From Spirochaetes bacterium GWE1_32_154 (lineage in GTDB: Bacteria > Spirochaetota > GWE2-31-10): a stretch of DNA of 64,000 nt. Position numbers and translations under genes: made by a program. Shown here in pieces: positions 14,817 through 61,805 of the stretch; the stretch's first letter is position 1, and each line of letters starts with the position of its first letter. The notes beneath the pieces were generated by a model. The model did no database searches and was not told the origin of the DNA. It saw only the letters and a program-made list of their open reading frames with translations. The stretch spans positions 1-64,000 of the forward strand of contig MIAY01000001.1 of NCBI GenBank assembly GCA_001829315.1, given 5' to 3'.

Positions 14817-17800
14817 TTATTTCACGAGATTCTTACCCGAGCAAAAGTAGGTTCTCATTAAACCTTTACCTTTAACATTTATTTCTCCCCGGTCTTCAAA
14901 AATATAATCTTCTTTTAATACAAGATATACCGCTTCTGAAACGTGAATTTCTCCCGGAGTTCCAAACTGCTCCATTCTGCTTGCAACATTTACCGAATCG
15001 CCCCATAAATCATAAATAAATTTCCTGGTTCCAATAACACCTGCGACAAGAGATCCTGTGTTTATTCCAATTCGCATTTGAAAGTCTGTCCCGATTTTTT
15101 CGTTAACTTCAAAAATTTTTTCTTTCATTTTGAAAGCAAACTGCATCATTTTTTCTGTATGATTCACTATTTTTTCGGGTACCCCGGCAACAGCCATATA
15201 TGCATCACCAATTGTTTTAATTTTTTCTATTCCGTATTCTTCTGTTAACAAATCGAATTCAGAAAATAGTGAGTTTATATAATATAAAAGAGTTGTAGGC
15301 GGAGTATTTGCTGCTAAATGAGAGAAATTAACAACATCTGCAAAGAGAATAGTAGCGCTATCAAATTTATCTACAATTGTTGTTTCACCAGCTTTCAATC
15401 TTTTTGCAATAGCAACCGGTAAAATATTAAGTAAAAGAGATTCAGATTTTTCCTTTTCGGATGAAAGGTCTTCTGTTCTTATTTTAACGATTTTTTCCAA
15501 CTCCAATTGTCTCAATTGCAGATTTTTAACCCTAACACTATAGATAAAAAAAGCAAGAAATGTGATTAAAACAATAAGAATGATGTAAAAAGAAATCCGC
15601 TGATAAAAATATGGTTTTTGAATAATCACGATACTTTCAGCATCATCACTCCAAATTCCATCATTATTTGCAGCCAGGACTTTGAAAACATATTTTGCCG
15701 GCGGTAAATTTGTATAGGTAGCATTTCTCGATGTTGAAGCGGGTGAAAAATCTTTATCAAATCCATCGAGTTTATACTTAAAAACAACTCTTTCAGGTAC
15801 AGTAAAACTTAACCCTGAATAATCAAATTCAATTCTTTTAATATTCGGATTAACGACAATCTGTTTTTCTATATCAGTTTTTTTATCATCTAATTTAATT
15901 GAATTTATTTTAACAAGTGGCGGATAAATATTCATTGGAATATTGTCAGGTGCTATCACAGCAACACCATTCAATGTAGGAAACCAGAGATTGCCTTTTT
16001 TATCAAGCATACCCCGCGCAACAGATGTCAGTCCGCCCGGCAAACCGTCATTTTTATCATATTCAATGACATCTATTTTTTTAATCGCATTTTTTGCATA
16101 TGAATTCATATCAAATTTTTTAGCATACGACACACTTCTTGTAGACGTCATCCAGAATTTCCCATGATTATCTTCAACAATTTGAAATATCGAATCACTT
16201 TTTAAACCGCTGCCTGCATTATAATTTACAAACGTATTTCCGTCATAACGACTAATACCTGTGCCGGTATTAATCCACATTATTCCTTCTTTATCTTTCA
16301 TAATTTTAAAAATAACATTGCCGGCTAATCCATTTTCAGTTTTTAGGTAACTGATTTTATTTCTTTCTTTATTGAATATATTAATCCCTCCACCATCAGT
16401 ACCGACATACAGAATATTATTTTCATCTTCATAGATACACATAATATAATCATTTGATAACCCATGATCTCTCGTATACTGTTTAATTGTTCCATCAGGA
16501 CTCAGAGTATTTAAGCCATTAGTTGTACCAATCCATATTATACCATTGTGATCGATGAGAGAAGTTCTTGTTCTTTCTCCGGTTAAACCATTTTTAATGG
16601 TATAAGAATCAATTGTATTTCCATCAAAAATGACAAAACCTTTCGATGAATAAGTACTTAATAGAATTTTATTTTTATGAACTAATATTTCACGAATTCT
16701 GATTTTTTCAAAATATTTTGTCAGTTGATTCTCAATAAATTTTCCATCTTGAAAACACGAGAGCCCTGAATCGGTTCCTATCCAAATTCTTTCGTTATTA
16801 TCCTGAGCAACGCTATTTACAGTCGGATGTACCAGACCATCTTTTAGTCCGAAACTTTTGAATTTACTTTTTGACAGTTTCTCGATACCGCCTCGTGTTG
16901 TTGCAATCCATATGTTTGATTCTCTATCTTCAATAATCTTTTCTACAAGATTATTGCTTAATCCATCTTCTTCATTGTATGTTGTAAATGTATTTTCTTC
17001 CTTTATAATTACACCGCTATCAGTTGCAACCCATAATCGTCCTGAATTATCCCTCATTATATTATTTACTTTGTCTGCATTAAAACCATTATTTTTATTA
17101 AAAATAGTTGTTTTACCATCTGAATAATAATGAAGGCCACTCTCTTTCGTTCCAAGCCAGTATCCGCCGACTGCATCAGTAAGCATTACTGTGTAAACAA
17201 AATCTGCAGAAATTGTTGTTGATTTTACAAACCGGTCTCCTGAATAATTAAATAACCCGGGTTTTGGTGTTGCAACCCACATCGTTCCTGCATTATCACA
17301 AAAAATAAATTCGATTAATTCATCATTACTAAAAGCGACACTTGATAACGGTTTTTCAATTTTACCATCTTTAATGTAACAAACTCCGCGTGTCGTACCA
17401 ATCCATATTCCTCCATTTTTATCTTCACATATCGATCTGATTGAATTGTCCGGCAATCCATCTTTTATAGTAAAAACAGTAGTTGTATGCTTTTGCATAA
17501 GAATAACCCCGTCACCATTTGTACCAATCCATAAATTACCTGTTTTATCCTCTAAAAGAATTCGAGCAGAAACACTTTGGAATTCAGGTACTGTATATTT
17601 ATTAATGAGATTAAACTTAACACCATCAAATTTAATTAAACCGTCATACGTACCTATTAAAATAAAACCGAATTTATCCTGAATAATATCGATTACCGTA
17701 TCAGAAACAAGCCCCTGATTTGATGTCCACTTTGTTTTTATAAGCCCTGACAATGCATTTTCTGCAAATAGAGAAATTACAGTAAAGTATAATATAAATA

Positions 17801-17819
17801 GTATAATTTTTTTATTCAT
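14817..17819 (-). CDS. Periplasmic two-component-type propeller fused to an adenylate cyclase
   Basis: 1000 residues. A signal sequence (1-22) leads into many repeats such as GNLWIGTNGDGV and GGIWIGTTRGVC, the Reg_prop blades of a large periplasmic beta-propeller (about 25-620). A Y_Y_Y domain (about 670-735, FKYKLDGFDKDFSPA) and one transmembrane helix (about 743-765) follow. A helical linker then leads to a class III cyclase (about 818-1000). Metal-binding Asp residues are in ILFADVVNFS and TIGDAYMAV. Lys in EKIKTIGDA and Asp in IYDLWGDSVNVASR specify ATP, so cAMP is the likely product. This architecture usually carries a histidine kinase, which makes the cyclase output unusual. GGAG precedes the ATG. 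Confidence 0.93.
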   Translation of the reverse strand: MNKKIILFILYFTVISLFAENALSGLIKTKWTSNQGLVSDTVIDIIQDKFGFILIGTYDGLIKFDGVKFNLINKYTVPEFQSVSARILLEDKTGNLWIGTNGDGVILMQKHTTTVFTIKDGLPDNSIRSICEDKNGGIWIGTTRGVCYIKDGKIEKPLSSVAFSNDELIEFIFCDNAGTMWVATPKPGLFNYSGDRFVKSTTISADFVYTVMLTDAVGGYWLGTKESGLHYYSDGKTTIFNKNNGFNADKVNNIMRDNSGRLWVATDSGVIIKEENTFTTYNEEDGLSNNLVEKIIEDRESNIWIATTRGGIEKLSKSKFKSFGLKDGLVHPTVNSVAQDNNERIWIGTDSGLSCFQDGKFIENQLTKYFEKIRIREILVHKNKILLSTYSSKGFVIFDGNTIDSYTIKNGLTGERTRTSLIDHNGIIWIGTTNGLNTLSPDGTIKQYTRDHGLSNDYIMCIYEDENNILYVGTDGGGINIFNKERNKISYLKTENGLAGNVIFKIMKDKEGIMWINTGTGISRYDGNTFVNYNAGSGLKSDSIFQIVEDNHGKFWMTSTRSVSYAKKFDMNSYAKNAIKKIDVIEYDKNDGLPGGLTSVARGMLDKKGNLWFPTLNGVAVIAPDNIPMNIYPPLVKINSIKLDDKKTDIEKQIVVNPNIKRIEFDYSGLSFTVPERVVFKYKLDGFDKDFSPASTSRNATYTNLPPAKYVFKVLAANNDGIWSDDAESIVIIQKPYFYQRISFYIILIVLITFLAFFIYSVRVKNLQLRQLELEKIVKIRTEDLSSEKEKSESLLLNILPVAIAKRLKAGETTIVDKFDSATILFADVVNFSHLAANTPPTTLLYYINSLFSEFDLLTEEYGIEKIKTIGDAYMAVAGVPEKIVNHTEKMMQFAFKMKEKIFEVNEKIGTDFQMRIGINTGSLVAGVIGTRKFIYDLWGDSVNVASRMEQFGTPGEIHVSEAVYLVLKEDYIFEDRGEINVKGKGLMRTYFCSGKNLVK

Positions 17820-48098: not shown

Positions 48099-48217
48099 GA
48101 GCTTCTTGCAAAAATCCCTTATTTATCTCGAATTTTTGCATGAAGCTACCTTAAACGCAATTTTTCTGCGTAACGGCGGATGCACAATCAAGTACTCTTG
48201 ATTTTTGCAAGAGCCAC
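48099..48217 (+). mobile_element. Palindromic non-autonomous element, long form (copy D)
   Basis: 119 bp, the same size as copy B and nearly identical. The ends (GAGCTTCTTGCAAAAATC and GATTTTTGCAAGAGCCAC) are inverted repeats. It is flanked by GTAT on both sides (48095-48098 and 48218-48221), a perfect 4-bp duplication. Internal stems (ACGCA/TGCGT and AATCAAG/CTTGATT) are conserved. It lies between the phosphatase and hybrid-kinase genes. Confidence 0.85.
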
Positions 48218-48265: not shown

Positions 48266-50968
48266 TTATTTAACTAATACTTTTCTTAAAACATCAACAA
48301 GATCATAAAGGCTGTAAGGTTTATTAAGAAATCCGGCAATCCCTGCATTTATCAACTGTTCAGCTCTCTGATCCTGTTTGTATCCTGACGATAGAATTAC
48401 CTTAATATCAGGATTTATTTCTTTTAAAGTTGTAAATAAGTCAATAGCCGTCATACCCGGCATAAGTAAATCCATTATTACTGCACTTATTTCTCTATAT
48501 TTTTCTTTATACATTTTGATCGCATCTTCACCGTTTCCGACAGCCAATGGTACACATCCAGCTATTTTAACCATTTGACTCGCAACATTAATAACATCAA
48601 TTTCATCATCAACTATCATAATAGTCTCATTTTTTCCTGTTACTACAAGCATTTTATCCGGATCTTCTATAATCAAATCAGGACTGGTAATTGCCGGAAG
48701 TAATATTGTAAATGTTGCTCCATCACCAGGTTGTGAGAAAACACGAATATAACCGCCATGAGATTCTATGATACGATACACCATCGCAAGCCCAAGCCCG
48801 GTTCCTACCCCTTTGTCTTTCGTTGTAAAAAACGGCATAAAAATTTTAGATGCAATTTCATCTGACATACCTATCCCGGTATCACTTATTATTAACTTAT
48901 AAAAATGAATAGTATGAGGTACCTGCAAGATATCATATATTTTATCATTTTCTTCCAAATCTCTAAGCTCGATTAATAATTCACCACCCCATTGTTCACC
49001 TTTAGGTCTCATGACAGTCATCGCATGAACTGAATTAATACACAAGTTGAGTATTGCCTGCTCTAATTGTATCGAATCACCCTGAATAAACGCCTGATTG
49101 ATAAATGTTTCAAAATGTATATTAACAGATTTATCCAATGATCTATCAGCAAAGTTTAAAACATTAGTGATAAAAGAATTAAGCTCTAAAGCTTTAAATT
49201 CTTTTTCATTCTTTCTGGAAAAGGTGAGTAATTGTTTAATTACACCGGCGGCTCTTTTTCCGGCCTGATTCATAAGTGATATATGTTCACTAAGATCATT
49301 AAGTTGAATATTTTCATTTTTTGATATCCGGAATTCAAGTATTGAAAGAGTACCTATGATACCGGCAAGTATGTTGTTGAAGTCATGTGCAATTCCCCCT
49401 GCAAGATTGCCAATTGTTTCCATTTTCTGAGCCTGAATCAGTAAACTCTCCTGCTCTTCGAGAACCGTAGTGTCTTCTGCTCTAATTACACCACCGCTTA
49501 TACCATTAGTTACAAGCGGGTATACTGTAATTTTAAAAAATCTCTTCTTCCCTTGAATATCAAGAGTTTTTTTGGGAAAAACCTCTTCTTTAAAAATTTC
49601 AGGTATCTTATTTAATGTATGTATCTGAGAAAGAAGTTCAGGAAATACAGAGTTTAGAATCGTTCCAACTGCTTCATCCTCAGATATCCCGGTTAGATTC
49701 TCAGCCATAGAATTCCAAAGCATTATTCTACCATCAGAATCAACACAAATTAAAAGCGATGGCATTGAATTAATTATGTTTGCTAGAAGTTTTTTTATGC
49801 TTTTTAGTTCTTTTTCTTTTAGTGAACTTATTTCTACCTCTTCATGAAGCCTCTCAATTGTTTTTTCAAGCTGTCGGCTCATATTATTAAAAGCAAGGGC
49901 AAGATGCCCTATTTCATCATCACTGTAAATCGGCATCTCCTCATCAAACAAACCTTCCTCTATCCGGCTTACTATTTTCTCCATAGATACTATAGGGTGT
50001 ACAATCTTTCTGGATAGAAATAATGATGCTGCAAAGGCAATTATAAATGATATAAATGTAATCAGAAAAAGAATACTGATTACAGCCGTCTGTACTTCAT
50101 AAAAAGCAGCAATATTAATTCCTGATCCAACCTGAAAAACTCCATATTCGGAATCAGAAAATTTTTGAAATGTAAAAATATATCTTGTAGAATTTAATTG
50201 TAATTCATTGAACAAATTCTCTGAAATAATTTCATGTACTTCTGTCGCGAAAGATCCTGAGTTGTCTCTGAAAAAAATTATATTATTATGTGAGAATACT
50301 AACTCTGATTTAGTATATGACCGAATTTTCTCAACTAATGAATCGCTTTGATTTGAACTCCCTATACAATAGCCGGCGACAATATAACACAAGAATTCGC
50401 CATCATATGAAGTTATTTTTTTTATGGATATTAAAGATATAAGTTCTCCCATCCTATGATGCTTCACTCCGAGTATTGAACATGTTTGTTGGGAGAGTGC
50501 GGTTATAAATGAAATTGTTGGATTGTTATTATCAATCATAGTAATTTCTTTATTAAATAACCCGGCAGAACCGTTTTTGAGCATTTTGCCACTTTCATCA
50601 AGTAATAAAATAAATGATAATTTTCTCTCATCAACTTTCTTTTCAATAAACTCATAGAGAGGTTGAGTAAGTTTTAGTTCCAGATTAATAATAACAGAGT
50701 TTTCTGCTGATATTTCCTCAACAGCATCTTTGACGGCTTCTATTTTTTGCTCTAAAAGCAGATAAGCACTTGTCGTTTTATCAGAAAGACCGGTTTCAAT
50801 ATTTTTATTGCTATAATTAACCATATAGATATAGTTCAGCAATGCAAACAGTAAAAGAGGAATCATGGCAGAAAGCAATAATGCCAGAAGTAATTTGGAT
50901 TTGATATTTAATCTTTTGATTTTGAAACTATATTTCTTTCCGGATTTCTGCTTATTACTCATGTACAT
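48266..50968 (-). CDS. Hybrid sensor histidine kinase with receiver domain
   Basis: 900 residues. Transmembrane helices at about 25-47 and 288-312 flank a periplasmic sensor region. HAMP (about 313-365), a PAS domain (about 395-505, LICVDSDGRIMLWNSMAENL), a HisKA domain with phospho-acceptor His in GGIAHDFNNILAGIIG, a HATPase with LCINSVHAM, SDTGIGM and GVGTGLGLAMVYRI, and a receiver (about 780-900) with Asp in VIMDLLMPGM. The start overlaps the aminotransferase end by ten bases and AAGGA precedes it, so it is the last gene of a five-gene operon. Confidence 0.94.
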   Translation of the reverse strand: MYMSNKQKSGKKYSFKIKRLNIKSKLLLALLLSAMIPLLLFALLNYIYMVNYSNKNIETGLSDKTTSAYLLLEQKIEAVKDAVEEISAENSVIINLELKLTQPLYEFIEKKVDERKLSFILLLDESGKMLKNGSAGLFNKEITMIDNNNPTISFITALSQQTCSILGVKHHRMGELISLISIKKITSYDGEFLCYIVAGYCIGSSNQSDSLVEKIRSYTKSELVFSHNNIIFFRDNSGSFATEVHEIISENLFNELQLNSTRYIFTFQKFSDSEYGVFQVGSGINIAAFYEVQTAVISILFLITFISFIIAFAASLFLSRKIVHPIVSMEKIVSRIEEGLFDEEMPIYSDDEIGHLALAFNNMSRQLEKTIERLHEEVEISSLKEKELKSIKKLLANIINSMPSLLICVDSDGRIMLWNSMAENLTGISEDEAVGTILNSVFPELLSQIHTLNKIPEIFKEEVFPKKTLDIQGKKRFFKITVYPLVTNGISGGVIRAEDTTVLEEQESLLIQAQKMETIGNLAGGIAHDFNNILAGIIGTLSILEFRISKNENIQLNDLSEHISLMNQAGKRAAGVIKQLLTFSRKNEKEFKALELNSFITNVLNFADRSLDKSVNIHFETFINQAFIQGDSIQLEQAILNLCINSVHAMTVMRPKGEQWGGELLIELRDLEENDKIYDILQVPHTIHFYKLIISDTGIGMSDEIASKIFMPFFTTKDKGVGTGLGLAMVYRIIESHGGYIRVFSQPGDGATFTILLPAITSPDLIIEDPDKMLVVTGKNETIMIVDDEIDVINVASQMVKIAGCVPLAVGNGEDAIKMYKEKYREISAVIMDLLMPGMTAIDLFTTLKEINPDIKVILSSGYKQDQRAEQLINAGIAGFLNKPYSLYDLVDVLRKVLVK

Positions 50969-52149
50969 TTAATTCCTTGCAAAAAATAATTATTATCTTC
51001 ATCATTACCTACAGTAATTCTAATATAACTTTTAAGTTCATCATTTTCTCCTGGCACTTTGGAAGTAATAATGCCTTTTTTTTCAAGATGGCTCATTAAC
51101 TCATTAGAAGTCATTGAATTATGTTTAACCATCAATATATTAGTATCTGATTTTATAAATGATATTGTATTAATTTTTTCAAGTTCTGTTACGAATTTTT
51201 CTTTTCTTACCCGGTTTTTAAACCTTACTTCCTCAAGATGACTCAGATTATTCAGTGCCATTTCAGCGATATCAAATGAAAATTGTGTTATTGGAAAATT
51301 TGTACTATGAATTCTCATGGCTTTGAATATATCAAGATCAGACATTAAGGCATACCCGATCCGCAAATTTGCGAGACCATAGGCTTTAGAAAATGTTCTT
51401 AGAACAATTAAATTATTATAGTCATGAAGAAGAGATGATGCAGAGTTCACTTTATTTTGCGGATCAGTATATTCACCATAAGCTTCATCTATTATAACAA
51501 ATGCATAATGTTCTGTCGCTATTTTCACAATATTGGATATCATATCTTTGCTGATTACTTTACCTGTAGGATTATTAGGATTAGCTATCCAAATTAATTT
51601 GGGGTGAAGTTTATCAAGAATTTCTTTATATTCATTGAATGTGTCAATTGTCCAGCTAAAATCCTGATTTTCATGAAGAGGCAAATATATTGGAATTGCT
51701 CCCATTCTCTTAGAGTATTCTTCAAAAAGAAAAAATGTTGGTGAAGTAACCAGTACTCTGTCATTTAATTCAAGGAATGTTGATGCAACCATACTGATCA
51801 TTTGCTCAAGCCCCGCAGAAAAAAGAACCCATTCAGCTGACACTTCATGTAAATTACCTATTTTTTTTCGTAGATTACGGCATACAAATTCAGGATATTT
51901 CTTTATATAATCTGATATATCATTATTTTTGAGTATTCTTTCAATAATACTACTAATTCCAGTATAACATCCGTCATTATTTTGTCCCATATCAAAACGG
52001 TATATTCGATCAAGTTTATATTTATTTTTAATATCTTCTATGTATTCCTTAATGTAAAATTCTTTATTTATATAACCATCAACTTTTTCATACAAAGCTC
52101 TTTGAGTACCAAGATTAAAAAAAGTATGGGTTCTGATATTATTATTCAT
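50959..52149 (-). CDS. HisC-like PLP aminotransferase
   Basis: 396 residues, fold-type I. Signature segments are LIWIANPNNPTGKVISKDMI, IIDEAYGEYTDP, and TFSKAYGLANLRIGYALMSD with the PLP Schiff-base Lys. C-terminal IRITVGNDEDNN binds the substrate carboxylate. It resembles histidinol-phosphate aminotransferase, but no his genes are near; it lies in an operon with an unknown protein, a binding lipoprotein, a DUF2332-like protein and a sensor kinase. Its substrate is therefore probably not histidinol phosphate. GGAG precedes the ATG, and ATGA overlaps the 449-aa gene. Confidence 0.88.
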   Translation of the reverse strand: MNNNIRTHTFFNLGTQRALYEKVDGYINKEFYIKEYIEDIKNKYKLDRIYRFDMGQNNDGCYTGISSIIERILKNNDISDYIKKYPEFVCRNLRKKIGNLHEVSAEWVLFSAGLEQMISMVASTFLELNDRVLVTSPTFFLFEEYSKRMGAIPIYLPLHENQDFSWTIDTFNEYKEILDKLHPKLIWIANPNNPTGKVISKDMISNIVKIATEHYAFVIIDEAYGEYTDPQNKVNSASSLLHDYNNLIVLRTFSKAYGLANLRIGYALMSDLDIFKAMRIHSTNFPITQFSFDIAEMALNNLSHLEEVRFKNRVRKEKFVTELEKINTISFIKSDTNILMVKHNSMTSNELMSHLEKKGIITSKVPGENDELKSYIRITVGNDEDNNYFLQGIKCT

Positions 52150-53495
52150 GTTATGTTCTCCAGCATAGATTCCACGCCACCTCTTACCATATTGCCGATG
52201 CTTTGTGAATTAACTGAGAATAAATCTCTATTTGTAAGTCCACCTTTTAAATTCCCGTTAAATATACCATTTTTAGAATTAAAGTGCCAAAGCATATCAA
52301 TACTACTATTATATTGCAACGGGATCATTCCACATATTAGAGCGTCGGTTTTTTTCCGCCGCAAACGTTGCACCATTTCAGGTCTATCAATTCTTTCAAA
52401 TACTCGTATATATGCCTGTTTCATGTGTGTTAAATATTCAATTTGATTAAATCCGCCAAAACAAGTAATATCCTCAAGAAATGTCACTATATAAAAGCTA
52501 AGAAATAATGTAGGAAAAATAGTTTTTGTTCTAATCGCATTTATTATATTCTCTGCTGTCATTTCAATAATTATATCTTTTCCAGAAAGAGCATTATCCA
52601 TTACCTCCAGTCTTTGAAGCTTTTTATTATCGCTTACTCCCCAAAAGAAATATGACCCGAATTCATCCCCCCAACAACCATTAATATTATGGAACTCTTC
52701 TATAAAAATGTCTCGAGTCTGTTTGTCTAAAAGAATTAATGACAACAAGCTCGATTCTTTTTGTAATTCATTTATCATAATTTCTCTGACGAGACTGGTT
52801 GTTTCTAAATAAATTAAACCAGGAATACTATCTCTAATATTCTCATCAAAAAAGAATTTCCATAAATCAAAATTTAATAAAGTAATTTGTTCAGAAAAAG
52901 TTGAACATAAATTATAAACACTGTCTTCCGGTAAAAGATGATCAAATAAATAATATAGAAATGATATTTCTTCTTTCGATAATTCAATATTTTTATCATA
53001 ACTTACAATTATTTCATTGAATCTGGTGTGTTTTATTTTATTCGTAAAAAGACCAACCGGTTGTTCTCCATATTTTGCAGGGAAGAAATTAAATTTTGCA
53101 TTTTTAAAATAAAACCCCCTTGGATAAGATTGATTGTTGAGTGGAATATTTCCGGTTGATAATACCACAGAATATGGCATAGAACAAAATCTCATAACTT
53201 CTGATAAAATTATATTTGAATTATACAATAACTTATAATGCAACAACCCATGATGATCTGCTGTCGATATTAAAGGAACACTTCTGAGTTGTTGGTTCAA
53301 TAAACCGGTATTAATACGGTCTTTTAATATTTCCCCGGCTTTTCTCGTAATTGCAGAACTTAGAATACCTTCTGATTCAAAGCAGTTGATATCTGATAAC
53401 ACACTTTTCGAATATTCTGCAAGCGATTTCTTACTGTTGTACCAATCCTTCATCATAGGTCGCTGTCTAAAAAGTAAATCCAGTTTATTATTCAT
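52146..53495 (-). CDS. Protein of unknown function (449 aa) in a sensor/aminotransferase operon
   Basis: 449 residues, not recognised. No signal peptide or transmembrane helix is evident, so it is probably cytoplasmic. Noticeable short motifs are LISTADHHGLLHYKLLYN (about 75-93), SVVLSTGNIPLNNQSYPRGF (about 110-130), NINGCWGDEFGSYFFWG, and DITCFGGFNQIEYLTHMKQA near residue 345. The His pair in ADHHG and the Gly-rich FGGFNQ suggest an enzyme-like active site, which is inference. It starts three bases after the ABC-lipoprotein stop and ends overlapping the aminotransferase ATG, so it is firmly in the operon. Confidence 0.85.
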   Translation of the reverse strand: MNNKLDLLFRQRPMMKDWYNSKKSLAEYSKSVLSDINCFESEGILSSAITRKAGEILKDRINTGLLNQQLRSVPLISTADHHGLLHYKLLYNSNIILSEVMRFCSMPYSVVLSTGNIPLNNQSYPRGFYFKNAKFNFFPAKYGEQPVGLFTNKIKHTRFNEIIVSYDKNIELSKEEISFLYYLFDHLLPEDSVYNLCSTFSEQITLLNFDLWKFFFDENIRDSIPGLIYLETTSLVREIMINELQKESSLLSLILLDKQTRDIFIEEFHNINGCWGDEFGSYFFWGVSDNKKLQRLEVMDNALSGKDIIIEMTAENIINAIRTKTIFPTLFLSFYIVTFLEDITCFGGFNQIEYLTHMKQAYIRVFERIDRPEMVQRLRRKKTDALICGMIPLQYNSSIDMLWHFNSKNGIFNGNLKGGLTNRDLFSVNSQSIGNMVRGGVESMLENIT

Positions 53496-53498
53496 TAA

Positions 53499-54581
53499 TT
53501 ACTTCACTCCGGCATAATTACCTTCATAGTCAGTGTAAACACGGTATGATGCACTCAGTAAATTTTCAGGAATAGTTAGACCAAGAAAATCACTTCTTTT
53601 TTTATTAAATAATAAATTGTATTTTCTCGGATAATCCCATGACATTAAAGCTGTATCTTTACCATCAATAAGGACCGCCTTCCCTTTTTCTGCAAGTTGT
53701 ACACCAATATCTGACCAAATAGTCGTAACTCCTGCCAGGTTACCATTCTCAACTGTTGTTTCATCATACGAAATTAATGGAATCGAATGTTGTCTCAGCC
53801 ATTCTGCTTCAATTTTATCATCTGCCGGTGAACCATCTCTTTTTACAAAAGCAGAAATTCCAACCATAAGAAAATATTCCCCGGATTTAGCGTTTAATGT
53901 ATCATACTTTTTAAAAAAATCCAGAATACTTTCCTGATCAGGGGCTTTATAAAATTCCACAAATTCAATTCCTTCTTCCTCACATGATTTTACAAGCTCT
54001 TTCTTAAGCATATCATTAACCAGTGTCATAATATCCCATGAGTAAAAGGCAAGTTTCTTTACATTTGGATTTAACATTTTCATAAGTCGTATCGGAGAAT
54101 TCATTTGAAGAAATATCCCTACACCAGTTATGTTACCGCCCGGTTGAGAAAGGCTCTCAATAATTCCTGCTTCTACCGGTACCGGATTCATTGAAATGAT
54201 TTTCACACCAAAGTCAGTTAATTTTTTTGAGACATTTAAATCTGCGAAACTATCGGGGAAATTTAAAGTAAAAATAAGATCCGGAAGTGCCGCTTTGATG
54301 TCAGTAACAATTGATTCTGCCTTAGCAGGATCAAGCTCTGTATCATAGACTGTATATTTCGCTTCTACTCCTGATTCTGCAAGAAGTCTGTCGAATTCAG
54401 TTACAATACCTTCTTTTGCTCTGATTGACCATTCATCAATAGTGTCTGTGACTATCACTATTTGATAAACTGATTTAATCTTTGGAGACTCTGTTGCTAC
54501 ATCCTTACTTCCGTTGGTAAAGGAATCTTTTTTACAACTGATAATTAATAAAAAAATAAAAAAATACACTATAGGTTTCAT
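53499..54581 (-). CDS. ABC-transporter substrate-binding lipoprotein (ABC_sub_bind type)
   Basis: 360 residues with a lipoprotein signal ending LLIISCKK (Cys16). The mature part resembles PF04392 proteins: TVYDTELDPAKAESIVTDIK, LPDLIFTLNFPDSFADLNVS, GIIESLSQPGGNITGVGIFL and TTVENGNLAGVTTIWSDIGV. Some members bind tryptophan, tyrosine or other amino acids. No permease or ATPase genes are near, which suggests a sensory role with the hybrid kinase rather than transport. AAAAGGAG precedes the ATG. Confidence 0.85.
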   Translation of the reverse strand: MKPIVYFFIFLLIISCKKDSFTNGSKDVATESPKIKSVYQIVIVTDTIDEWSIRAKEGIVTEFDRLLAESGVEAKYTVYDTELDPAKAESIVTDIKAALPDLIFTLNFPDSFADLNVSKKLTDFGVKIISMNPVPVEAGIIESLSQPGGNITGVGIFLQMNSPIRLMKMLNPNVKKLAFYSWDIMTLVNDMLKKELVKSCEEEGIEFVEFYKAPDQESILDFFKKYDTLNAKSGEYFLMVGISAFVKRDGSPADDKIEAEWLRQHSIPLISYDETTVENGNLAGVTTIWSDIGVQLAEKGKAVLIDGKDTALMSWDYPRKYNLLFNKKRSDFLGLTIPENLLSASYRVYTDYEGNYAGVK

Positions 54582-54625
54582 AGTAATCTCCTTTTCGTTC
54601 TAAAATAATAGAACATTTAATTTAG

Positions 54626-55540
54626 TTACAAAAATTCCCAATTCTCACATCTATCACTATCCAATTTAACATATGCAATGCCGTCTTTTCTGATAAAATA
54701 TGCATCATCATGACCCGCTGACGCTATCCTAACCATCTGATCAAGCCAAACTCCATCATATTTTAAGCAGAAAGAATTAATGACCGATTCGAGTTCATCA
54801 TTCTGCGATTTACTCAACTGATATGTCATAAAGGATGTTAAAATTATAGGAGTAACTTTTAAGCAGTCAATTTTGTTTTCAGCAATAATATCCTCAAGAT
54901 CGAAAGCAGATCCTTTAAGAAGTAGAAAATTTTCAGTATTTCTGTAATCTTCTATAAACTGTTTCAATCTAATAAGATGTTGATCATCAGGAGTACAAGC
55001 AAGAAGCCATTTTTCATCAGGAGGATCGAGCTCAATACCAAGATATGAAGAAATACTTAACCAGGAAACAGGAAATTGCTGCTTATCTGTAAAATAGTTA
55101 TTAGTTTTAGTGATTATATCAGGCATATTTAATAATAACTTGCCAATCAACCCATAAGACGCTCCAAGTTCAATAACAAAAACATCTTTTAATGGCTTTT
55201 GTAAACTTATCATTTCCATAACCGGTAAGCCACGCTCAGGGAAATTAGCTTGCACTTTTTTTGTACAACATAAGCGAATAAGTTCATCATAATTTCCTGA
55301 TAGAAAAGGCTTAATTTCAAGTGATTTTCCAAAACCGGAAGCGATAGTATAATCGTTTGATATGTATCGAAGAGATGCAAGAAAAACAAGAACAGATTCC
55401 GAAGCAGTCTTTCCTGATAAGTGCATTACTGACACTAGAAAACTAATTACATCATCAGATAGAAGCTCGTTCCTTAAAAAATCATTCCACAAAAAACTAT
55501 TGTTTCCAATATAATCTCTCAATAAAGAAGAATCAGTCAT
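54626..55540 (-). CDS. DUF2332-like putative methyltransferase-fold protein
   Basis: 304 residues. The centre reads VFVIELGASYGLIGKLLLN, similar to the ELGASAGLN motif of DUF2332, and later segments LGIELDPPDEKWLLACTPDD, LLLKGSAFDLEDIIAEN and TPIILTSFMTYQLSKSQNDE also fit. The pattern suggests a SAM-methyltransferase-like fold of unknown function. It is the first gene of the five-gene operon, 44 bases before the lipoprotein gene. Confidence 0.72.
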   Translation of the reverse strand: MTDSSLLRDYIGNNSFLWNDFLRNELLSDDVISFLVSVMHLSGKTASESVLVFLASLRYISNDYTIASGFGKSLEIKPFLSGNYDELIRLCCTKKVQANFPERGLPVMEMISLQKPLKDVFVIELGASYGLIGKLLLNMPDIITKTNNYFTDKQQFPVSWLSISSYLGIELDPPDEKWLLACTPDDQHLIRLKQFIEDYRNTENFLLLKGSAFDLEDIIAENKIDCLKVTPIILTSFMTYQLSKSQNDELESVINSFCLKYDGVWLDQMVRIASAGHDDAYFIRKDGIAYVKLDSDRCENWEFL

Positions 55541-59356: not shown

Positions 59357-60088
59357 TTGAAAAATATACTATACTCACTTTATGGCTGGCTGCTTCTTGT
59401 AATTATTGCACTTATTTTATTGATGATATTACCATGCGTTTTCATACTGCGGCTTTTTTTTAATTCCGTGTTTGAGAAAACGTTGTCATTAGCAAGCCGT
59501 ATTTTCTTATTTTTATTTTTCCCCCTTACCATAAATGTATCTGGTGTTATTTCACCACCTGAAAAGGGAACAAAAAGAATGTATGTAGTTTCACATGGTT
59601 CCCGCCTTGACGGTGTACTATTAAGTTTGCTTCCGGGAAGAATATTTTATTTAATGAAAGATAAAGATGCGGCTATACCTGTTTTCGGATGGATAATTAA
59701 ATGGGCAGGGCATGTGCTTCTGCCAAAAAATACATCACTGCATAATTCTGATGGCATTATTGATACCTGCAGACATGTTTTTGAAAAAGGCGGATCTTTC
59801 CTGATTTTTCCAGAAGGAACAAGAAGCCGTGACGGTCAAATAGGACGTTTTCATACAGGAGCTTTTATACTTGCTAAAATGTGCGGTGCTGATCTGTATC
59901 CGGTAATTTTTGATACCTATAAAGTATTACCGAGAGGAAAAATAATATTTCAGGATTTCAAAGTGAATATACATTTTCTTAAACCCGTATTACACTCTGA
60001 AATGAATAATAAAACACCTAAAGAATTAAGTACTGAAATAAAGAATGAAATGATTGGTGTTCTAAAAAATAAACGAAGTGTTAACTAA
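59357..60088 (+). CDS. PlsC-like 1-acylglycerol-3-phosphate acyltransferase
   Basis: About 243 residues from a TTG at 59357, chosen because AAAAAGG lies six bases upstream (the frame opens at 59351). One or two N-terminal membrane helices precede the LPLAT core. Seen are the catalytic HX4D motif (VVSHGSRLDGVLLSLLPG) and FLIFPEGTRSRDGQIGRFHT, the phosphate-binding box. It should transfer acyl chains to a glycerolipid or related acceptor at the inner membrane. It is followed 19 bases later by the GNAT-aminotransferase fusion and then by an exporter gene. Confidence 0.88.
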   Translation: MKNILYSLYGWLLLVIIALILLMILPCVFILRLFFNSVFEKTLSLASRIFLFLFFPLTINVSGVISPPEKGTKRMYVVSHGSRLDGVLLSLLPGRIFYLMKDKDAAIPVFGWIIKWAGHVLLPKNTSLHNSDGIIDTCRHVFEKGGSFLIFPEGTRSRDGQIGRFHTGAFILAKMCGADLYPVIFDTYKVLPRGKIIFQDFKVNIHFLKPVLHSEMNNKTPKELSTEIKNEMIGVLKNKRSVN

Positions 60089-60107
60089 TAAAAAATGGAG
60101 TCATAGT

Positions 60108-61805
60108 ATGGATAAAATTGTAATTAAAATTGCCGACGTGAATGAAAGAGACGGGATTTACAAATTAAGGCATACTATATATGCTGTTGAACTTGGTCAA
60201 CATAAAACAAATCCTGAAGAACAGCTAAAAGACAGTATTGACGACATTAATACCTATATTATTGCAAAAATAGATGATCAAATTGCAGGTTTTGTAAGCA
60301 TAACACCTCCGGGTGGCAGTTACGGACTTGATAAATACGTTTCAAGAGATGAGTTTCCATTCATTTATGACAATATGTATGAAGGAAGATTGTTTTCTGT
60401 TTTGAAACCATACAGAACAACGAATGTTGCATTATTATTATTTTTCGGAGTGTTACGATTTGTTGAGTCACGTAAAGGTGATAGAATAATGACTATTGGT
60501 AGAGAAGATCTTGTTGATTTTTATGAAAAAACCGGTCTGATAAACCTCAATAAATCGATCATATCCGGTGCGGTCGAATTTAAATTATTATATGCATTAG
60601 TAACAGATATCCGGAAAAAAATTGCCGTTTATGAGAATATACTGAAAAGGATAAAAAACAAGGTTGACTGGCAACTTGATTTCCCGATGATTGAAGAAAA
60701 AACCTGCTATCATGGTGGTGCTTTCTTTAATGCGTTAGGACACCGGTTTGAGACCCTTGAAAAAAGTGACTCGGTAATAAGTGCAGATGTTCTTGACGCG
60801 TGGTTCTCACCCGCTGATGAGGTTATACAAACACTAACAGAGTATCTCCCGTTTGCACTGAGAACATCACCTCCAACGTATGCTGAAGGGTTAGTCGAAG
60901 CAATAAGTGAATATCGGGGTGTTAATACAGATTGTATTCTAACAGGAGCCGGTTCATCTGCACTTATTTATCAGGTATTTCCTCACATCGTACATAAAAC
61001 TTCAAAGGTGCTTATAATTGAACCGTCGTATGGTGAATATGCTCATATACTTGAAGAAGTGATTGGTTGTCAGGTAACAAGAATGTATTTAAGTCGCCAG
61101 GATGGTTATGTTCTTAATATAGAAGAACTCGAAAAGAAATTAAAATTCGGCTTTGATCTTGTCGTATTAATAAACCCCAACAATCCGACAGGTATATATA
61201 CACAATCTGATTTACTACAAAAAGTTATGGATAATGCTCCTGCTCATACACTATTCTGGATTGATGAAACCTATATTGAATATGCAGGATTGTCATGTTC
61301 ACTTGAGAAATACGCAGCACAATCAGAAAACTGCATAGTATGTAAATCAATGTCAAAAGTTTACGCCCTTAGCGGAGTAAGATCGGGCTACATCGTTACC
61401 GGATCAAAACGAATACAGTATCTTAAGAAATTCTCTCCTCCCTGGGCTGTCAGTCTTCCGGCTCAAATAGCATCGGTTAAAGCACTTGAAAATCCCGAAT
61501 ACTACAGAAAAATGTATGATATGACAGCCGTGTTACGACAACAGTTACACGCTCAACTTGAGAATCTTGGTTTATTCGATATAACCACCGGGGTAATTAA
61601 TTCTATTTTATGCCACTGTAAACCGGGACTGATTCAAGCTGATACACTTGTTGAAGAAGCCAGAAAAAGTAATCTTTTTATACGGAATGTTATTTCCATG
61701 AATAAGGGCAGTCAGAAAAGCGTTGTCCGTATCAGTGTAAAGTCTCAGGAAATTAATGAACAAATTATTTCAATCTTAAAGAATATCGCCGGTAAAAGAG
61801 TATAA
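60108..61805 (+). CDS. GNAT acetyltransferase-PLP aminotransferase fusion protein
   Basis: 565 residues from the ATG at 60108 (TGGAG upstream). The N-terminal domain (about 1-150) reads DGIYKLRHTIYAVELGQHKT and AGFVSITPPGGSYGLDKYVS, an LuxI/GNAT-like arrangement (YxLRHxxYxxELGQH) seen in N-acyl-amino-acid-type synthases. A linker then leads to a HisC-like aminotransferase (about 205-565) with VVLINPNNPTGIYTQSDL, WIDETYIEYAG and VCKSMSKVYALSGVRSGYIV, which holds the PLP Lys. The fused activities suggest synthesis and further modification of an amino compound; the product is unknown. It sits between a PlsC-like acyltransferase and an RND exporter. Confidence 0.87.
   Translation: MDKIVIKIADVNERDGIYKLRHTIYAVELGQHKTNPEEQLKDSIDDINTYIIAKIDDQIAGFVSITPPGGSYGLDKYVSRDEFPFIYDNMYEGRLFSVLKPYRTTNVALLLFFGVLRFVESRKGDRIMTIGREDLVDFYEKTGLINLNKSIISGAVEFKLLYALVTDIRKKIAVYENILKRIKNKVDWQLDFPMIEEKTCYHGGAFFNALGHRFETLEKSDSVISADVLDAWFSPADEVIQTLTEYLPFALRTSPPTYAEGLVEAISEYRGVNTDCILTGAGSSALIYQVFPHIVHKTSKVLIIEPSYGEYAHILEEVIGCQVTRMYLSRQDGYVLNIEELEKKLKFGFDLVVLINPNNPTGIYTQSDLLQKVMDNAPAHTLFWIDETYIEYAGLSCSLEKYAAQSENCIVCKSMSKVYALSGVRSGYIVTGSKRIQYLKKFSPPWAVSLPAQIASVKALENPEYYRKMYDMTAVLRQQLHAQLENLGLFDITTGVINSILCHCKPGLIQADTLVEEARKSNLFIRNVISMNKGSQKSVVRISVKSQEINEQIISILKNIAGKRV

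Follow-up and report, generated by a model that had tools for sequence, protein, structure and literature searches.

The window analyzed here, a 64,000-nucleotide stretch of contig MIAY01000001.1 from Spirochaetes bacterium GWE1_32_154 (assembly GCA_001829315.1), carries at positions 48266-55540 an operon-like cluster in which a binding lipoprotein, a predicted ligase, an aminotransferase, and a hybrid histidine kinase are encoded together. An earlier note, made from the sequence alone, had described a tight five-gene cluster there. The five open reading frames (ORFs) were found exactly where it had placed them. All lie on the minus strand, and the junctions, in the order of transcription, measure +44, +3, -4 (ATGA type), and -10 bases. 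The features are listed below in that order.

54626..55540, minus strand: first gene, an optional member, encoding a 304-amino-acid (aa) DUF2332/S-adenosylmethionine (SAM)-methyltransferase-like protein (PF10094, E 8e-4, below cut-off)
53499..54581, minus strand: 360-aa ABC_sub_bind (TrpX-like) solute-binding lipoprotein with a lipobox-like LIISC-K (PF04392, 66.5 bits)
52146..53495, minus strand: 449-aa protein, very probably a divergent BshC-superfamily member and a predicted amino-acid ligase (AlphaFold2 model, Foldseek, profile match, and motif correspondence)
50959..52149, minus strand: 396-aa HisC-like pyridoxal phosphate (PLP) aminotransferase with a specific N-terminal part of about 60 residues (PF00155, Aminotran_1_2, 158 bits)
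48266..50968, minus strand: 900-aa membrane hybrid histidine kinase, arranged as transmembrane (TM) segment, extracytoplasmic sensor, TM segment, HAMP, PAS, HisKA, HATPase, and REC (Pfam)
48194..48214, minus strand: weak terminator-like hairpin past the last gene (consensus scan)

Several of the five starts, including those of the lipoprotein gene (AAAAGGAGATTACT-ATG) and the aminotransferase gene (CTGGAGAACATAAC-ATG), have Shine-Dalgarno-like (ribosome-binding-site-like) sequences ahead of them. Because the upstream neighbor is divergent and starts about 520 bases away, and a SpoIIE-type phosphatase gene follows 231 bases downstream, the five genes form a natural unit. Promoter and terminator scans gave numbers of sites not above those in shuffled sequences; the hairpin is, therefore, only suggestive.

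Four of the genes are linked in another genus of the same spirochaete family. On contig 66 of genome G001 (locus L003; L005, 'Spirochaetes bacterium MAG.183', is this contig too), genes for the lipoprotein, the 449-aa homologue, the aminotransferase, and the hybrid kinase keep their order and strand, and the proteins are 38%, 39%, 54%, and 37% identical, respectively, to those of the window. The 4-base overlap between the 449-aa and aminotransferase genes is retained, with the remaining L003 junctions looser. The flanks are unlike: the DUF2332-like and SpoIIE-type genes border the block in the window, while at L003 an EamA transporter gene lies upstream and chorismate synthase and shikimate kinase genes lie downstream on the same strand. 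Since order and strand are the same in another genus despite different flanks, the four-gene linkage is more than chance. Either of the profiles used located the 449-aa family in 2 of 392 Spirochaetota genomes, and both genomes carry the whole block. This count excludes a weak match in genome G078, which was false; it lay in an NAD-synthetase-like gene and was lost with the larger profile.

The first gene is an optional neighbor. It is absent at L003, and no match to it was found in G001 or the rest of the 60 related genomes searched, the source genome excepted; the conserved unit is thus four genes. The earlier note had named a lack of linkage in other genomes as grounds for refuting its claim, and the claim survived this comparison. 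The segments ELGAS-GL and WL-A---PD---R---L of the first gene's product, read by eye, resemble the DUF2332 family, but the score against PF10094 was 19.4 bits, under the Pfam gathering cut-off of 25.

The 449-aa protein, previously listed as unknown, had no match in Pfam, NCBIfam, PHROG, or PDB sequences. An AlphaFold2 model was built from five sequences, with a predicted local distance difference test (pLDDT) of 66.9 and a predicted template modeling score (pTM) of 0.71. The sole clear match to this model among solved structures was 4wbd, the B. subtilis BshC (Foldseek E 4.1e-5, probability 1.00), with a VIA Z of 14.1 over 357 residues, a root-mean-square deviation (rmsd) of 4.7 A, and 11% identity in the structural alignment. 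The second match was a class-I lysyl-tRNA synthetase (LysRS; 1irx) with a Z of 10.2. The model of a Peregrinibacteria homologue (27% identical, pLDDT 54.5) likewise matched 4wbd first (Foldseek E 0.011; Z 12.6, 294 residues, rmsd 5.0) and LysRS second, although the two models are not fully independent because both were built on the same five sequences.

We compared, after the structure match, a profile of 18 family members with 8 PF10079 BshC proteins from acidobacterial genomes. The hhalign score was 41.6 (P 3e-4), against a maximum of 24.2 in 200 column-shuffled BshC alignments, 16.2 when reversed, and approximately 0 for an aminotransferase control. The 18-member profile was needed for this result, as the comparison was not significant with only 3 or 5 members (prob 0.1-0.2%); an hmmsearch of PDB sequences with the 18-member profile did not reach BshC. 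Inside the stretch aligned by hhalign, LLPT-AY-GG--E-AY of BshC aligns with LPGVR-LGG--Q--Y of the family. The BshC motif TGQQ(A/V)GL itself was not found; in a by-eye alignment, TGQQ-GL stands opposite a segment that reads TADHHG in close members and TGPH in rhizobial ones. The only invariant residues in the 18-member alignment were H81, L296, G347, and G348. Neither the 449-aa protein nor anything else in the source genome matched PF10079 above cut-off, so the protein is a superfamily member and not BshC. The fold match and the profile score beyond the shuffles indicate that the former unknown is a divergent BshC/class-I-aminoacyl-tRNA-synthetase-like protein. We hold its membership of the BshC superfamily, in the sense of homology and not of function, to be very probable. 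Given that identity, its chemistry would most likely be ATP-dependent amide formation and not an unspecified modification, and we consider an amide-forming activity moderately likely.

The aminotransferase scored 228.9 bits against TIGR01141 (hisC), under the equivalog cut-off of 276.55, and a separate genuine HisC is encoded in the source genome (C1:270489-271508, 300.5 bits). The PLP lysine in the TFSKAYGLANLRIGY motif, K255, is present and invariant between the window protein and its L003 orthologue. Pairing with the 449-aa family extends to a second phylum. In genome G510 (locus L023; 68% G+C), which is from the phylum of an 'Acidobacteria' metagenome-assembled genome (MAG), the gene for a family member (24% identical) has downstream of it, in the same orientation, an aminotransferase gene whose product is 40% identical to that of the window over 391 residues, the specific N-terminal part included. 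With 100/100 support, the aminotransferases of the window, L003, and L023 group in one clade that excludes the other HisC-like proteins from these genomes; row L050 of this tree, intended as the HisC of the source genome, was disregarded (wrong reading frame), and L049, a genuine HisC, lay outside the clade. A CHASE8 hybrid kinase gene and a TonB-dependent receptor gene adjoin the L023 pair on the opposite strand. At locus L006, binned with the 'Acidobacteria' MAG, the gene after the family member encodes a PLP enzyme of the BioF/alpha-oxoamine-synthase type. The earlier suggestion that the cluster makes or modifies an amino compound is plausible for the enzyme pair; the methyltransferase-like gene is an optional neighbor. 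Elsewhere in the window (60078-61805), a 575-aa ORF is a fusion whose C-terminal half contains a HisC-like aminotransferase domain.

The sensor pair and the enzyme pair could be unrelated neighbors. The L023 enzyme pair occurs without the binding protein, and the block is confined to two genomes of one family, as accidental adjacency would allow. However, order and strand are shared at approximately 38-54% identity between different flanks, genes of the window overlap, Nitratidesulfovibrio vulgaris provides another case of a PF04392 binding protein beside a family member, and a hybrid kinase gene lies close to the L023 enzyme pair. We consider accidental adjacency improbable.

Remote members of the 449-aa family occur in settings rich in ligases, transporters, and regulators, which are typical of small-molecule production. 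A Streptomyces plasmid cluster combines a remote member with methyltransferase, Orn/Arg-decarboxylase-like, SDR, amidinotransferase, ATP-grasp, major facilitator superfamily (MFS), and FemAB-like genes. On an S. clavuligerus plasmid (L044:4061-12834), a member ends a region, possibly a biosynthetic cluster, with ATP-grasp, arginase, isochorismatase, DUF3865, HypE, and HypF genes, and the remote member on an N. vulgaris plasmid lies beside a PF04392 binding protein gene and a sensor-MFS fusion. In candidate-phylum genomes, members were located away from the other operon genes; none were present in the phages and viral contigs searched. A second, divergent member in Roizmanbacteria (L024:5595-10018) lies beside genes for an enolase-superfamily (MR_MLE) enzyme and a peptidase S51. 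MR_MLE is the fold of dipeptide epimerases, and enzymes of both kinds can act on dipeptides.

More than 100 rhizobial plasmid records contain the family. The rhizobial loci that we read had either the order LuxR, class I methyltransferase, family member, and, in most cases, GNAT, with tra genes or traI frequently adjacent, or the order AraC, MFS, and family member. The LuxR of the A. rubi cassette has an autoinducer-binding domain. At the Rhizobiaceae plasmid loci L026, L027, L028, L029, L030, L031, and L045, the third gene of the LuxR cassette, which encodes the BshC-superfamily protein, is annotated as hypothetical throughout. The methyltransferase-like protein of the window had no detectable homology to the rhizobial methyltransferase. 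The names RcgA and RcgR do not apply to the cassette, as these rhizobial conjugation proteins are transmembrane and alpha/beta-hydrolase-like and are not the products of these genes (PMC9601222).

These settings bear on whether the enzyme pair makes a low-molecular-weight thiol resembling bacillithiol, with the 449-aa protein as a cysteine ligase and the kinase reading redox state. BshC is the nearest known fold and the distant homologue of the 449-aa protein, and the source genome is without PF10079 BshC, both of which would fit. Yet no glycosyltransferase or deacetylase gene adjoined a family member in any locus read, and the partner genes encode PLP enzymes, racemases, methyltransferases, and transporters. 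In addition, the TGQQ motif is replaced, PF10079 fails to recognize the protein, and both G510 and the G392 bin hold family and PF10079 BshC matches together. A thiol product, therefore, seems highly improbable.

The ORF list and domain searches revealed no permease or ATPase gene within the five-gene cluster. The binding protein instead adjoins a hybrid kinase with an extracytoplasmic sensor and Pfam domains HAMP-PAS-HisKA-HATPase_c-Response_reg, an arrangement kept in L003, where the kinase orthologue is 37% identical over the kinase and 26% over the sensor. LuxP-LuxQ and TorT-TorS, in which a binding protein presents its ligand to a hybrid kinase (PMC8534201), share this adjacency without a permease, which supports the earlier suggestion of ligand sensing; by analogy, the lipoprotein and kinase probably form a binding-protein/kinase sensor. 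The window operon differs from those systems in its ABC_sub_bind/TrpX-family binding protein and its co-encoded biosynthetic enzyme pair. The source genome also encodes a fusion of a PF04392 domain with a PAS-HisKA_2/HWE histidine kinase (L047:5100-7652), which amounts to a binding-protein/kinase pair in one protein. At 14817-17819 of the window, a two-component-regulator propeller and a Y_Y_Y domain are fused to an adenylate/guanylate cyclase and not to a kinase.

What the sensor detects could be an external cue. The lipoprotein matched the TrpX model NF041285 with an E of 1e-15, and its PDB relatives are 3lkv, 6hni, and 3lft. HisC-like enzymes often accept aromatic amino acids. The lipoprotein and kinase could sense an external amino acid, perhaps aromatic, and switch on the aminotransferase-ligase pair, whose product would not be the signal. 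The tryptophan-binding TrpX family and 3lft/6hni among the lipoprotein's relatives, the substrate range of HisC-like enzymes, and the same-strand chorismate synthase and shikimate kinase genes that come next at L003 all favor such a cue; however, the TrpX score was 57.7 bits, far under the cut-off of 390, and the window has no such linkage to aro genes. We regard an environmental cue as possible but not likely.

Other PF04392 genes have different company. Binding-protein genes at L046:4135-7805, L048:3172-6715, and L013:3109-7375 lie next to, and overlap, genes for MFS transporters that have large N-terminal extensions of about 390-590 residues with TM and Cache-like extracytoplasmic domains. 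The pairing recurs in spirochaetes and Nitratidesulfovibrio, and a binding-protein-linked MFS transporter would be unusual. The L046 genes belong to a cluster in the source genome (L046:1012-9818, G000 contig 21) encoding an Orr-like racemase, a 303-aa protein, a PF04392 binding lipoprotein, a sensor-MFS fusion, a Ddl-type ATP-grasp ligase, and a HAMP-guanylate-cyclase. Its mix of PLP enzyme, amino-acid ligase, binding protein, and sensory proteins is that of the window operon, although the parts are unrelated. Because its binding protein is closer to that of N. vulgaris than to the window lipoprotein, the two operons are analogous and not clear duplicates. The racemase and 303-aa protein had no BLASTP similarity to the decarboxylase-like and FemAB-like proteins of Streptomyces.

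Our preferred reading, to which we give roughly even chances, is that the operon combines biosynthesis and sensing in one cassette, for an amino-acid-derived amide that is sensed in the manner of LuxP-LuxQ or TorT-TorS. The aminotransferase would make or trim an amino acid or amine. The 449-aa protein would use ATP to activate a carboxylate and couple it to an amine, yielding an amino-acid-derived, dipeptide-like amide. Outside the inner membrane, the lipoprotein would bind a small ligand, for which the most economical candidate is the product or else a precursor or analogue, and would present it to the extracytoplasmic domain of the kinase, as LuxP does for LuxQ and TorT for TorS. The kinase would then pass phosphate to its own receiver domain and on to further partners. 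We infer the ligase activity, the amide product, the lipoprotein-kinase interaction, and the identity of ligand and product; that the sensor reads the operon's own product is doubtful.

Several points weigh against the cassette. The full block is present in only two genomes, and in L003 either a sequence error or a genuine frameshift divides the kinase between two frames. For the L006 contig, which is short and has 36% G+C, both the host and the assignment to an acidobacterium are doubtful. Confidence in the 449-aa model is modest (pLDDT 66.9), and the motif loop falls under 50; the closest members have TADHHG in place of the TGQQ signature; and catalytic activity is not readable from the BshC fold. 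Inference from BshC is itself limited, because, according to a 2015 review (PMC4360819), its activity had yet to be reconstituted in vitro. The lipoprotein could serve an unrelated transporter.

Among known systems, BshC (YllA, 4wbd), the presumed cysteine ligase of bacillithiol biosynthesis, resembles the family in its fold for two members, in profile similarity, and in collinear N-terminal and GG--(E/Q)-Y motifs; it differs in length (about 540 residues versus 449), in TGQQ versus TADHHG, in recognition by PF10079, and in gene company. Class-I aminoacyl-tRNA-synthetase-like ligases, such as MshC, cyclodipeptide synthases, and paralogous methionyl-tRNA synthetase operons, share the fold and the habit of small operons with PLP enzymes or GNAT. 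Ligases of this kind are well established in small peptide operons, and analogous operons use ATP-grasp ligases instead (Aravind et al. 2010, PMC2922099). A search of that paper's main text for YllA, LuxR, MFS, rhizobia, and aminotransferases found none of them, so the 449-aa family appears undescribed there. CqsA-CqsS quorum sensing also places a PLP enzyme gene beside a hybrid kinase gene, and the L006 homologue is accompanied by an alpha-oxoamine-synthase-type PLP enzyme, whereas the window operon has a HisC-like enzyme, additional ligase-like and binding proteins, and an extracytoplasmic kinase sensor. In open-access papers, we found no relevant report of BshC-like proteins in biosynthetic clusters and no description of the ligase family or of this gene combination.

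The 449-aa family, blank in current libraries and carried on many rhizobial conjugative plasmids by LuxR-type regulators, gains a fold, a superfamily, and a testable chemistry from these data. With its different partners, this divergent relative in an operon gives another way into the mechanism of BshC, an open problem. It is possible but unlikely that the operon is a cell-to-cell signaling circuit of a new class, in which the aminotransferase and the BshC-superfamily ligase make a signal for the linked lipoprotein and kinase, and that the wider ligase family, with its LuxR-linked rhizobial cassettes and Streptomyces clusters, consists of unrecognized non-ribosomal amide-forming enzymes. If the sensor does read the product, the operon would be a new small-molecule signaling circuit with synthesis and reception in one transcript.

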